64,000 nt of DNA from Parasphingopyxis marina. Its GTDB lineage: Bacteria > Pseudomonadota > Alphaproteobacteria > Sphingomonadales > Sphingomonadaceae. A model generated the notes under the pieces. That model was not told the DNA's origin. It did not search any database and saw only the letters and a list, made by a program, of their open reading frames with translations. The stretch spans positions 186,001-250,000 of the forward strand of contig NZ_JACJVJ010000003.1 in the NCBI RefSeq assembly GCF_014237875.1, read 5' to 3'. A program made the position numbers and the translations under genes. Every line of letters begins with the position of its first letter. The first letter of the stretch is position 1. Positions 57,424-62,043 of the stretch are shown piece after piece.

Positions 57424-59916
57424 TCAGTCAGTGCGCATCGCGATTTCCGCCAGCGCTTCAGCCTCGATCAGCAGCGCATCGTCGACGGTTCCTTGGGCGA
57501 CATGTTCGCGGCCAATGAGAACCAGCACCGGCACGGCGAGTGGCGAGACACGGGGGAGGTCGACATGGACCATCGTGTCTTGCGCGCGATCCAGCAGCGA
57601 GGCGAGACGGCCGACATCGGTGAGCTTGGTCCGCGCATCGGCCCAAGCCGCCTGCAGCAACAGATGATCGGGTTCGTACCGGCGAAGCACGTCGTAGATC
57701 AGGTCGGTCGAAAAGGTAACCTGCTTGCCGGTCTTGCGTTTGCCCGGGTGCTGGCGCTCGACGAGGCCGCCGATCACCGCCACTTCGCGAAAGGCGCGCT
57801 TGAGCAAGTGCGAGCCCTCGACCCAGTCGACAAATTCATGTTCCAGGATATCGGGAGAGAAAAGCGGCGCGGGATCGCGCACCCGTTCCAGCGAATAGCA
57901 GGCGAGACTGTAATCGTTGGCGACAAAGCCGATGGGTTTCAGCCCGGCCGTTTCCATTCGCCGGGTCAGCAGCATGCCAAGCGACTGGTGCGCGTTCCAG
58001 CCTTCGAAACTATAGGCAACCATATAGTGGCGATGTTCGTGCGGGAATGTCTCGACCAGCAGTTCGTTCGCCTTGGGCAGGCGGGATCGGAGCGCCTGGA
58101 TCGTCAGCCATTCCTCGACATCCTCGGGAAAGGCCGCCCATTCGCTGCGATCGGCCAGGAAGCCGCGCACCCGGTTGGCAAGATGCGTAGTCAGCGGCAT
58201 CCGCGCGCCCATATAGGAAGGAATGCGCGCGGCCTTGGCCGAAGCGCGGACGAGGAGGTCGGGATCCTTGATCGAAAGAACTTCGAGACTCATGCCCGCG
58301 AAGAAGAAGGTGTCGCCGGTTGATAGCGAAGCGGCAAATATCTCCTCCACCCTGCCGACCTTGCGGCCGTTCCGGAACCGGATGTCGAGCATCGGCGCCT
58401 CGACGATGATCCCCGCGTTGAGCCTGTGCTGCTTGACGAATTTGGGATGGCTGACACGCCAGATGGTCTGCCCGTGTTCGTCGATTTCCGACGTCAGCCG
58501 CTTGAACTTGTCATAGGCTTTGAGCGCATATCCGCCGTTGGCGATATAATCGAGTTCGCGCGCGAATTCCGCCGATGTGAGCTCGCGATAGGGCGCGGCC
58601 GAGCGGATCTCGGCCAGCATCGCGGCTTCCTCGAACGGCTGAGCGCAGGCGCAGGCCATCAGATGCTGCGCGAGGACGTCCAGGCCGCCGGGCCGGAAAG
58701 CATCCGCGTCGAGTTCCTTTTCCGCCACCGCGTCGAGCGCCGCGCGGGCTTCCAAATATTCGAAGCGATTGCCGGGGACGAGGATCGCCTCGGACGGTTC
58801 GTCGAGCCGATGGTTGGAACGGCCGATACGCTGGAGCAGCCGTGAAGCGCCCTTGGGCGCGCCCATCTGAACGACGCAATCGACATCGCCCCAATCGACG
58901 CCGAGATCGAGGCTGGCGGTCGCCACCAGCCCGCGAAGCTCGCCGCGCGCCATCGCGCTTTCCACCTTACGCCGTGCCTCGCGGGAGAGCGAACCATGAT
59001 GAATGCCGATCGGCAGCTGCGCCTCATTCGCCTTCCACAGTTTCTGGAAAGTCAGTTCGGCGAGGCTGCGGGTGTTGCAGAAAATAAGCGTCGTCTTGTG
59101 AGCGGCGATGATTTCCATCACCTGTTCGGTCGCATACATGCCCGAATGGCCGGACCAGGGGACGCGATCCTCGGGCAGCAGGATGCGGATATCCGCCTCG
59201 GCGCCGGGATCGCCGCGCACGATCGAGACATTGTCCGTCTTACCGCCGGGCGCCAGCCATTGGGCATAGGCATGCGGGTCTGCGACCGTCGCCGAAAGCG
59301 CGACCCGGCGCACATTCGGTGCGAGCGCCTGCAGCCGCGACAGGCCGAGATTCAGCAGGTCGCCGCGCTTCTGGGGAGCAAAAGCGTGGACCTCGTCAAT
59401 GATGACGGTCTTCAACTCCGCGAACAGCGTTGCGCTGTCGGAATAGGACAGCAGCAGGCTCAAGGATTCGGGTGTGGTCAACAACATCTGCGGCGGGCGC
59501 CGGCGCTGGCGGACCTTGCGGTTATGCGGCGTATCACCGGTGCGGGTTTCGACTCGGATATCGAGCGCCATTTCCTCGATGGGTGCGAGCAGATTCCGCT
59601 GGACATCGACCGCGAGCGCCTTGAGCGGCGATATATAGAGCGTGTGCAGTCCGCCAGATGGCGTCTCGATCAGATCGGCGATGCTCGGCAGGAAGCCGGC
59701 CAGCGTCTTGCCCGCCCCGGTCGGCGCGACGAGCAGCGCATGTTTTGCCGCTCGCGCCGCCTCCAGCATTTCCCGCTGGTGCCGTCTTACGTTCCAGCCG
59801 CGACTTGCGAACCAGTCATCGATTGCGTTCGGCAAAAGGGATTGTGTCGCCATCGCGGCCATATAGGCACGATGCCGCGCCGCGGATACTGGATCGACCC
59901 GTTCGATCGGCGTCAT
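57424..59916 (-). CDS. Ligase-associated DNA damage response DEXH-box helicase (Lhr-type)
   Basis: 830 residues. Helicase core: VAPTGAGKT (Walker A), VIIDEVHAF (DEXH), VALSATVADP (motif III), then QMGAPKGASRLLQRIGRSNHR (motif VI). The C-terminal half is the DEAD/H Lhr region with a winged helix and a WYL-independent tail. It belongs to the set of PdeM, an ATP-dependent ligase and an exonuclease; only PdeM is nearby (52.2 kb). Start uncertain: ATG 59916 or ATG 59853 (809 residues), the latter nearer the usual N-terminus. Confidence 0.9.
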   Translation of the reverse strand: MTPIERVDPVSAARHRAYMAAMATQSLLPNAIDDWFASRGWNVRRHQREMLEAARAAKHALLVAPTGAGKTLAGFLPSIADLIETPSGGLHTLYISPLKALAVDVQRNLLAPIEEMALDIRVETRTGDTPHNRKVRQRRRPPQMLLTTPESLSLLLSYSDSATLFAELKTVIIDEVHAFAPQKRGDLLNLGLSRLQALAPNVRRVALSATVADPHAYAQWLAPGGKTDNVSIVRGDPGAEADIRILLPEDRVPWSGHSGMYATEQVMEIIAAHKTTLIFCNTRSLAELTFQKLWKANEAQLPIGIHHGSLSREARRKVESAMARGELRGLVATASLDLGVDWGDVDCVVQMGAPKGASRLLQRIGRSNHRLDEPSEAILVPGNRFEYLEARAALDAVAEKELDADAFRPGGLDVLAQHLMACACAQPFEEAAMLAEIRSAAPYRELTSAEFARELDYIANGGYALKAYDKFKRLTSEIDEHGQTIWRVSHPKFVKQHRLNAGIIVEAPMLDIRFRNGRKVGRVEEIFAASLSTGDTFFFAGMSLEVLSIKDPDLLVRASAKAARIPSYMGARMPLTTHLANRVRGFLADRSEWAAFPEDVEEWLTIQALRSRLPKANELLVETFPHEHRHYMVAYSFEGWNAHQSLGMLLTRRMETAGLKPIGFVANDYSLACYSLERVRDPAPLFSPDILEHEFVDWVEGSHLLKRAFREVAVIGGLVERQHPGKRKTGKQVTFSTDLIYDVLRRYEPDHLLLQAAWADARTKLTDVGRLASLLDRAQDTMVHVDLPRVSPLAVPVLVLIGREHVAQGTVDDALLIEAEALAEIAMRTD

Positions 59917-60002
59917 GCCTTGTCGGTCGGGAAATGAGGCGAATGGCAGTTAGAAGCTGCGCCGCGCCTAACAGGTTGTTATTGCGACGCACAAAATCCG
60001 GA

Positions 60003-60062
60003 CAAAAAAAGGGCCGCCCCGAGGGGCAGCCCTGAAGTTTAGGAGAGGATGCCTGAAAGGCA
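60003..60062 (-). ncRNA. Candidate small RNA with anti-Shine-Dalgarno loop
   Basis: Read on the minus strand the element starts with a small hairpin (TGCCT-TTC-AGGCA, 60062-60050), then a single-stranded pyrimidine-rich run TCCTCTCCTAAACTTC, which could pair with ribosome binding sites, then a GC-rich hairpin and seven T. A -35-like TTGCAG and a -10-like TACAAA sit 17 bases apart just upstream (60096-60068). The size is about 60 bases. It lies in the only gap over 300 bases in the window (59917-60224), between the Lhr helicase and the phosphomannomutase. This hairpin/anti-SD/terminator plan is typical of alphaproteobacterial trans-acting sRNAs, but no family match could be made. Confidence 0.5.
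60004..60033 (-). terminator. Rho-independent terminator of the candidate sRNA
   Basis: GGGC/GCCC plus an inner GCCC/GGGC pairing (one C-A mismatch) with a 4-base loop, and a seven-T tail on the minus strand. It could alternatively end the phosphomannomutase transcript, whose stop is 190 bases upstream. Confidence 0.78.
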
Positions 60063-60088
60063 CGATCTTTGTATGTCTTACTGCATTT

Positions 60089-60133
60089 TGCTGCAACTGC
60101 GAAAAACACAGATACGGTTGCAAATGCTGCAAC
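60089..60133. promoter_or_regulatory. TGCTGCAAC direct repeats upstream of the candidate sRNA
   Basis: The 9-mer TGCTGCAAC occurs at 60089-60097 and again at 60125-60133, 36 bases apart. The second copy is also the right arm of a perfect GTTGCA-N5-TGCAAC palindrome (60117-60133). The first overlaps the candidate sRNA -35 element. Spacing and symmetry suggest a regulator site. Confidence 0.35.
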
Positions 60134-60224
60134 GCACAAAAATCCCGCGCAAATGTGCGATTCCATGCCTCAGATCGTTATTTCGGGGGGATCGATTGCA
60201 GCCTTGGGCGGGATTCTAGCGCCC

Positions 60225-61607
60225 TCAATGCCCGGTTTGCGCTCCGCGTTCGAGACCCGACGCGGCAAGTTGCGCGTCGATTTGCCCGACAAGCCGCTCG
60301 AGTCCGCCCTGACTTGAGGCTTCGGCGCGGGCGACGAGCACGTCCTGCGTGTTGGATGCGCGCAGCAGCCACCAGCCGTCTTCGGTGTTGACCCGCGCGC
60401 CATCGGTATCGTTGACCTCGGCGCCTTCCGCCTTCAGCCGTGCGAGCACTTCCTCGATCACCGGGAATTTGCGGCTTTCGTCGACCTGGAAGCGCATTTC
60501 CGGGGTGTTGATCATCTCGGGAAGTTGGCCGCGCAACTCGGTCACGCTCTTGCCGAGTATGTGCGCGGCCGAGATCAGCCGTATCGCGGCGAACAGCGCG
60601 TCGTCGAAGCCGTAATAGTCCTGCGCAAAGAAGATGTGCCCGCTCATCTCGCCGGCAAGCGGCGCGCCGGTTTCCTTCATTTTCGACTTGATCAGAGAGT
60701 GGCCGGTTTTCCACATCAGCGGCTCGCCGCCCAGTTCCGCGATCCGGTCGTATAGCGCCTGTGACGCCTTCACATCGGCGATAATCGTGGCGCCGGGAGC
60801 CTTGCGGAGCACCGGTTCGGCAAGGATCGCGAGCAATTGATCGCCCCAGATCACCCGGCCCGTGCCGTCGATCGCGCCGATCCGGTCTCCGTCGCCGTCG
60901 AAAGCCAGTCCGAAATCGAGCTTGTTGTCGGCGACGAGCTTTTTCAGGTCTGCGAGATTCGACTCGTCCGTGGGATCGGGATGATGATTGGGAAAAGACC
61001 CGTCGATATCGGTGAAGAGCGTGAAATGTTCGCCGGGCAGCCGTTCGGCGAGCCGTTCGACGATCGGCCCCGCGGCACCGTTGCCCGCGTCCCAACCGAT
61101 GCGGAAGGTGCCGCCTTCATAGCCGGCCATCAGTCGGTCAAGATAGATATCGGCGATGTCGAGCGTTTCGTTGGTGCCCGTTCCGTCTTCCCAGTCGGCG
61201 GCTGCGGCCATCTCCCCGAGCCCGAGGATGTCGGTGCCGAAAAACGGCCTATGCTGAAACACCATCTTGAAGCCGTTATAGTTGGCGGGATTATGGCTGC
61301 CGGTTATCTCTATGCCGCCATCCACCTCTAGGGTCGCCTCGGCGAAATAGAGCATCGGCGTTGGCCCGCAGCCAATTCGCACGGCATTGCATCCCGATGC
61401 GTTGAGCCCCTCGACGAGCGCCGCTTCGAGTATCGGCGAGCTTTCGCGGCCGTCATAGCCGACCGCTACCCGGCTGCCGCCTGCGCGGCGGATAAGCGTG
61501 CCGAAGCTGCGCCCGATCGCACGCGCGTCGTTTTCGCCCAAGGTTTCGCCGACGATCCCGCGGATATCATATTCGCGAAGGCTGGTCGGGTGAAAGGTGT
61601 GGGACAT
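60225..61607 (-). CDS. Phosphomannomutase/phosphoglucomutase
   Basis: 460 residues of the alpha-D-phosphohexomutase family (AlgC/ManB-like). Phosphoserine loop TGSHNP (Ser104), metal loop FDGDGDRIG (about 240), sugar-binding GEMSGH and C-terminal phosphate-binding [15 protein letters not shown] (all four domains present). It interconverts mannose-6-P/mannose-1-P or glucose-6-P/glucose-1-P for exopolysaccharide and LPS precursors. ATG 61607 starts [17 protein letters not shown]; extra upstream codons are not conserved. Confidence 0.94.
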
Positions 61608-61692
61608 GGGGCAATCGCTTTCGGTTCGTTTGTCGGGCCAGCGCATACCCAGTCCGGCTGGCAAGGGCAAAGGCCGCGTGATAGCCAGTGCC

Positions 61693-62043
61693 ATGGGCTA
61701 TCTGCTTCTCAAGGCCGCGCTGTCGGGGATCATCATAGCGATCGTTTCGGAGATTGCGCGGCGTAGCCCCGGCTTCGGCGCGCTCGTCGCTTCGCTGCCG
61801 CTCATATCGGTGCTGGGCATGATCTGGTTGTGGCGCGACACCCATGATCCGGTCCGCATGGCCGATCACGCAATGGCGACGTTCTGGTTCGTGTTGCCAT
61901 CGCTTCCGATGTTCGTGGCGATCCCGGTGATGCTTCGGCAGGGCCTGCCGTTCTGGGTGTCGCTTGCCGTCGGCTGCCTGCTGACGATCCTGCTCTATTT
62001 GCTGATGACCTGGATCGGCCCGCGCTTCGGCCTGAGGCTCTAG
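61693..62043 (+). CDS. DUF3147-family membrane protein
   Basis: 116 residues with four helices (about 3-20, 30-48, 62-80, 86-108). Conserved [20 protein letters not shown] and [12 protein letters not shown] blocks match DUF3147. Function unknown. The TAG stop overlaps the convergent DnaJ-domain gene stop by 4 bases. It is divergent from the phosphomannomutase gene. Confidence 0.82.

Follow-up and report, generated by a model that had tools for sequence, protein, structure and literature searches.

Which RNA, if any, is made from the gap between pgm and an lhr-type helicase gene, on what would it act, and what would control it? In the window, by which we mean the whole 64-kb stretch of Parasphingopyxis marina DNA that was analysed, this gap extends for 308 bases from the pgm stop to the longest lhr-type helicase frame (59917-60224), in agreement with the original prediction, which had described a gap of over 300 bases and had placed in it, on the minus strand, a candidate trans-acting sRNA of the alphaproteobacterial kind with an anti-ribosome-binding-site loop, offering its name and targets as inference only.

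Family and structure of the sRNA

The Rfam covariance search matched RF00519 above its cut-off (E 9.3e-8 for the 64-kb window), covering the full model from 1 to 77, and this was the only above-cut-off Rfam match across the 64 kb; upon relaxing the threshold, the remaining families in the stretch all stayed under their own cut-offs. One of these, BjrC1505 (RF02356), matches the same stretch weakly, mainly in the terminator part, and was rejected as its 26.4 bits fall short of a cut-off of 50. The plan of RF00519, a weak leading hairpin, a single-stranded run and a Rho-independent terminator, was found here by fold and scan. The locus is almost certainly a member of the suhB/MmgR (alphaR8) family, a family that is already known, with SuhB, MmgR and SisA-D as known relatives, and the predicted trans-acting sRNA is thereby supported by its sequence and given a name by Rfam. 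The features are collected in Table 1.

Table 1. Features of the suhB locus, in positions of the 64-kb window.
Feature	Position	Strand	Basis
suhB/MmgR (alphaR8) sRNA gene	59996-60068	minus	RF00519, 51.8 bits vs cut-off 41
Probable RNA	about 60064/60061 to 60004	minus	ends placed from promoter and terminator
Leading hairpin	60049-60063	minus	fold; identical in all collected copies
Anti-ribosome-binding-site seed AUCCUCUCCU	60041-60050	minus	AUCCUCUCC in 127/127 Sphingomonadaceae-type copies
Intrinsic terminator, 10-pair stem and seven U	60004-60033	minus	scan, fold, covariation in relatives
Promoter, -35 TTGCAG, 17 bases, -10 TACAAA	60096-60091 and 60073-60068	minus	columns conserved in relatives
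Element B, TTCGCAGTTG, overlaps -35	60094-60103	minus	105/127 at -42 +/- 1
Element A, TTGCAGCATTTGCAA	60118-60132	minus	82/127 at -71 +/- 1
Upstream PhaR-type box, overlaps element A	60122-60142	no strand	matrix score 24.4, best of window
Downstream PhaR-type box, just past terminator	59977-59997	no strand	matrix score 18.4, second of window
Neighbour pgm (phosphoglucomutase/phosphomannomutase), outside element	60225-61694	minus	Pfam PGM_PMM I-IV
Neighbour lhr-type DEAD helicase, outside element	57424-59916	minus	Pfam DEAD, WH_Lhr, DEAD_assoc

The minus strand of 60003-60133 folds at -48.5 kcal/mol (z -4.79, with none of 200 shuffles as good), and the predicted RNA would measure about 58-61 nt. 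Both the leading hairpin (5-6 pairs at 60063-60049) and the terminator (stem 60033-60010, U at 60010-60004) came out as originally described. The CU-rich run at 60049-60041 is present and is mostly rather than wholly open, as in the model of the 66-nt form its UCU pairs weakly with a 5' AGA. Lack of conservation would have spoken against the sRNA; the comparison with relatives showed a run that is invariant in 127/127 Sphingomonadaceae-type copies and a terminator stem that covaries (125 distinct copies). The leading hairpin is invariant, with no covariation, and as the search pattern fixed most of its core, this invariance is no independent proof.

Matches to RF00519 at E 0.001 or better were found in 54/60 relatives and 135/149 family genomes, of which 49/60 and 122/149 lie above the cut-off. 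Thermus composti, one of 14 control genomes, also gives a match, and weak RF00519 matches are therefore unsafe evidence. The usual neighbour of alphaR8 in most species, according to the available part of PMC12559287, is an N-formylglutamate amidohydrolase gene; it is not found at the window locus, which is flanked by pgm and lhr. There are four RF00519 matches in the window's genome and only the window copy is above cut-off. One paralogue (L033) agrees with the window copy in both seed and promoter module. Another copy, L034 (G000:C2:585947-586029), is alphaR8-like and sub-cut-off, carries CCCUCCCU, a seed of the canonical type, and adjoins an N-formylglutamate amidohydrolase gene, the family's usual place. 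A further sub-cut-off hairpin-terminator, L032 (G000:C3:126279-126351, 36.3 bits), is suhB-like, has neither A nor B and differs in its loop; as a suhB-type sRNA it is doubtful.

Seed variant and candidate targets

To count seeds we took the loci L001-L073 and L127-L186 and extracted from them, by a pattern of hairpin and seed, copies together with 250 upstream bases; of the 145 distinct rows obtained, 127 have CCTCTCC and 18 do not. These are mainly strong matches, so that weak copies are under-represented and copies missed by the pattern, such as L034, lie outside the counts; related genomes and paralogues among them are not independent. Within this sample AUCCUCUCC and the longer stretch ATCCTCTCC occur in 127/127 Sphingomonadaceae-type copies, and UUUCCUCCC replaces AUCCUCUCC in 17 copies that belong to other families within the order. 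Of the 18 remaining rows 17 read TTTCCTCCC, the eighteenth being L032 of the window's genome. The published 10-mer UUUCCUCCCU, the seed of SisA-D of Caulobacter crescentus (PMC12559287, seen in part), is absent from the window copy, which has AUCCUCUCC instead, a clade variant of this 10-mer, still recognised by the Rfam model. SisA-D resemble the window copy in their alphaR8 plan, their anti-Shine-Dalgarno seed and their several copies per genome, and MmgR of Sinorhizobium meliloti differs from the Sphingomonadaceae in having the canonical 10-mer, according to the same part of PMC12559287. In view of the changed seed, target lists from Caulobacter and rhizobia should not simply be transferred.

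Similar in kind is SuhB of Sphingopyxis granuli TFA, a sphingomonad sRNA that bears the same Rfam name and measures about 61 nt; it acts with Hfq in carbon catabolite repression by keeping thnR from being translated, and is linked to PHB (PMC6563040, in the part available). Experiments have shown this action of SuhB on thnR, and likewise the seed pairing of SisA (available part of PMC12559287). We propose that SuhB, with Hfq, would pair AUCCUCUCC with ribosome-binding sites of the GGAGAGGAU type, and that genes for the use of other carbon sources would thereby go untranslated. That the sRNA acts by covering ribosome-binding sites is very probable, and that it both belongs to the suhB/MmgR family and acts on such sites we consider likely. 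An Hfq gene is present in the window's genome. At G000:C2:126158-126583 (L353) two Hfq domains share one open frame of 201 aa, that is, a tandem Hfq.

RGGAGAGGATG occurs at eight sites in the window's genome, two of them the suhB copies. At five of the six others a start codon follows 8-13 bases after the site's first base, and the genes so marked encode an acyl-CoA dehydrogenase, an FMO-like protein, an amidohydrolase, an SDR and a DUF3237 protein. With a 45-nt stretch set against one of 70 nt, duplex energies of -28 to -38.5 kcal/mol were predicted, a figure computed without a control. Across 36 genomes, seed-complementary sites before start codons numbered 17 vs 10 for a one-base-changed control, a contrast that is weak, with few sites, and counts against the targets. 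By our own reading (150 aa or more, antisense frames ignored), 10/17 of the seed set and 4/10 of the control set stand before real genes, L254, L256, L260, L263 and short frames having been set aside. The seed set comprises two GST, two SDR, a TonB receptor, a fatty-acid hydroxylase, an acyl-CoA dehydrogenase, an FMO-like protein, an amidohydrolase and one protein without family, and the control set an M16 peptidase, a GNAT protein, a phage capsid and one without family. By family the seed set is mostly catabolic, detoxifying or uptake-related and the control set is not, a classing that was made after the genes were seen and in which four of the ten come from the very genome that suggested the idea, that of the window. 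We offer the listed catabolic genes as predicted leads, whose standing as real SuhB targets is tentative.

Promoter elements A and B

The -10/-35-like pair had been predicted with 17-base spacing; the spacing stood, but a scan for the sigma-70 consensus found no promoter at the sRNA, the TTGCAG/TACAAA pair being too weak, which counts against it. We nevertheless find the pair believable because it is conserved in relatives. If positions are counted from the G of GCC in the leading hairpin, element B, TTCGCAnTTG (searched as TTYGCAnTTG), lies over the -35 and begins at -42 +/- 1 in 105/127 promoters (shuffles 0.05 of 127), and element A, TTGCA-N5-TGCAA (searched as YTGCR-N5-YGCAA), begins at -71 +/- 1 in 82/127 (shuffles 0.0 of 127); 71/127 promoters have both. 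Neither element was found at these positions in the 18 promoters of other type. For sisA-D, PMC12559287 reports no shared promoter motif, whereas A and B are common to the Sphingomonadaceae copies.

When both elements were sought at their spacing, one mismatch being allowed, hits came from 34/60 genomes, 31 of them Sphingomonadaceae. The window's genome yielded its two suhB copies only, and further sites in G017, G022, G023 and G025 immediately precede genes of small proteins, most of them exported. Six of these frames were tested: four fall into UrcA family TIGR04433, one into no family, and the sixth was only a 25-aa piece. These UrcA-family and small-protein loci with A-B are L217 (G023), L218 (G022), L220 (G025) and L221 (G017). 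It appears that A-B marks a small regulon common to suhB and UrcA-family genes, and the conserved module points to one regulator for both. Element A looks like an activator site; it has the T-N11-A form near -65, which we take to be a LysR-type likeness, and a LysR-type activator would be our guess for the A-B regulator.

PhaR-type boxes around suhB

Our PhaR matrix was built from 16 efficiently bound S. meliloti sites (taken from the available part of PMC12542648) and has a training mean of 22.9 and a minimum of 17.6. The two top positions of the 64 kb flank suhB (Table 1), and the upstream one scores above the mean of the bound S. meliloti sites. The window's genome has phaR (PF07879 and PF05233), with one box upstream of it (23.3), and its phasin gene has two (27.7 and 26.8). 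The core YGCRNYGCR stands upstream of 30/30 phasin genes (a count made without a shuffle control), and two such cores, 45-48 bases apart, precede 24/24 Sphingomonadaceae phasin genes. Among the suhB promoters, the strict core TGCRNYGCA occurs at -23 to -18 in 38/127 (shuffles 0.45) and at -80 to -55 in 7/127 (shuffles 2.15). With a score of at least 12, boxes are found in 52/127 promoters vs 16/127 control stretches (156-250 bases upstream) vs 0/18 promoters of other type. Several results count against control by PhaR: the strict core is at either preferred place in only 45/127 promoters, the control stretches also reach a score of 12 in the 16/127 just given, and the family's commonest box, at -19 (38/127), is missing from the window copy. 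A PhaR site in element A itself was considered and dropped, as the spacing differs and A is kept in G026 and G033, which have no phaR match. On the predicted boxes we lean towards PhaR as a controller of suhB.

In the usual model PHB draws PhaR off DNA. PhaR is a PHB sensor and repressor that in S. meliloti binds near the start site of mmgR, of the same Rfam family and likewise tied to PHB, and represses it, the binding to the mmgR promoter having been shown by experiment, and the PHB granules of S. granuli promote suhB transcription (available parts of PMC12542648 and of the 2019 review, PMC6563040). The molecular route from PHB to suhB is not given in that part of the review, nor are PhaR boxes mentioned there around the S. 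granuli gene; our literature search found no PhaR-SuhB link shown in sphingomonads. We propose that without PHB, PhaR would bind the boxes and keep suhB down, and that PHB granules would titrate PhaR so that suhB is transcribed. As the upstream box overlaps A, PhaR would compete with the factor that binds A and not cover the -10; in copies with the box at -19 it might cover the -10. Unlike mmgR, which has one box near its start (PMC12542648, in part), the window copy has one over element A and one past the terminator. What may be new is the wiring, predicted PhaR boxes on both sides of suhB. If true, it would link the PHB store directly, through PhaR, to SuhB, and in sphingomonads, which are used to break down pollutants, PHB would then signal carbon catabolite repression.

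The bracketing pair recurs in the genus. Six of the ten genomes compared yielded a pgm-linked suhB, and upstream and downstream cores are present in 6/6 of these copies, both boxes scoring at least 12 in only 4/6. The upstream core is at -75 in the window copy and at -61 or -60 in the other five, and the downstream core is at +70 to +75, 11-12 bases past the U-run, in 6/6; elsewhere a core at +68 to +76 was seen in 2/106. Downstream, the window has the codirectional lhr-type gene, while each of the five congeners has a gene convergent with suhB, sulfotransferase-like in two and of the metallo-lactamase fold in three (Pfam having been run on one of each kind). Since a promoter box is unexpected between two gene ends, suhB is the gene that the downstream box most likely serves, and we suggest tentatively that it takes part in suhB control.

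Other accounts of the locus have to be weighed against these boxes. The PhaR-like boxes of a true SuhB sRNA could be due to chance or belong to another factor, A and B alone exerting control, perhaps through a LysR-type activator. As A and B occur more often than the PhaR boxes and at more exact positions, and in the window's genome mark the two suhB copies only, this is a possibility to be taken seriously, if a somewhat doubtful one. A phaR match is absent in only 4/149 family genomes; in three of these, G026, G033 and G145 (G138 being left out), the copies seen keep A and/or B (in G026, L029 has both and a second copy was found by pattern; L041 of G033 has A only and L167 of G145 B only). 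On the other hand, the window boxes are the two best PhaR matches of 64 kb, one exceeding the bound S. meliloti mean, and cores recur on both sides of suhB across the genus.

The downstream box alone might, instead of controlling suhB, serve the promoter of the lhr-type helicase or act as a roadblock, as that gene is codirectional in the window and the start of its longest frame lies some 60 bases past the box; given the five congeners that keep the core 11-12 bases past the U-run and yet have a convergent next gene, we find this quite improbable. Far more remote is the notion that the element is only the pgm terminator, or else an RNA processed from the 3' end of pgm, having no promoter of its own. 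While pgm does lie upstream on the same strand, with suhB no more than 700 nt away in 25/80 pgm loci, suhB is absent there in 55/80 (one of these incomplete), pgm adjoins only about 11 distinct suhB loci among those scanned, and the promoter module keeps a fixed spacing to the RNA.

As for PhaR acting at both boxes, core-to-core spacing is 145 in the window and 133-135 in the five congeners, a difference of about one helical turn that would keep both boxes on the same helix face, although this is a hint only, as the five congeners share ancestry. It is conceivable, if unlikely, that in this genus PhaR represses the gene by holding both boxes and so bending the DNA between them, from promoter to terminator, into a small loop, which would open when PHB granules pull PhaR away. 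Some of the A-B small-protein loci also carry a PhaR-type core.
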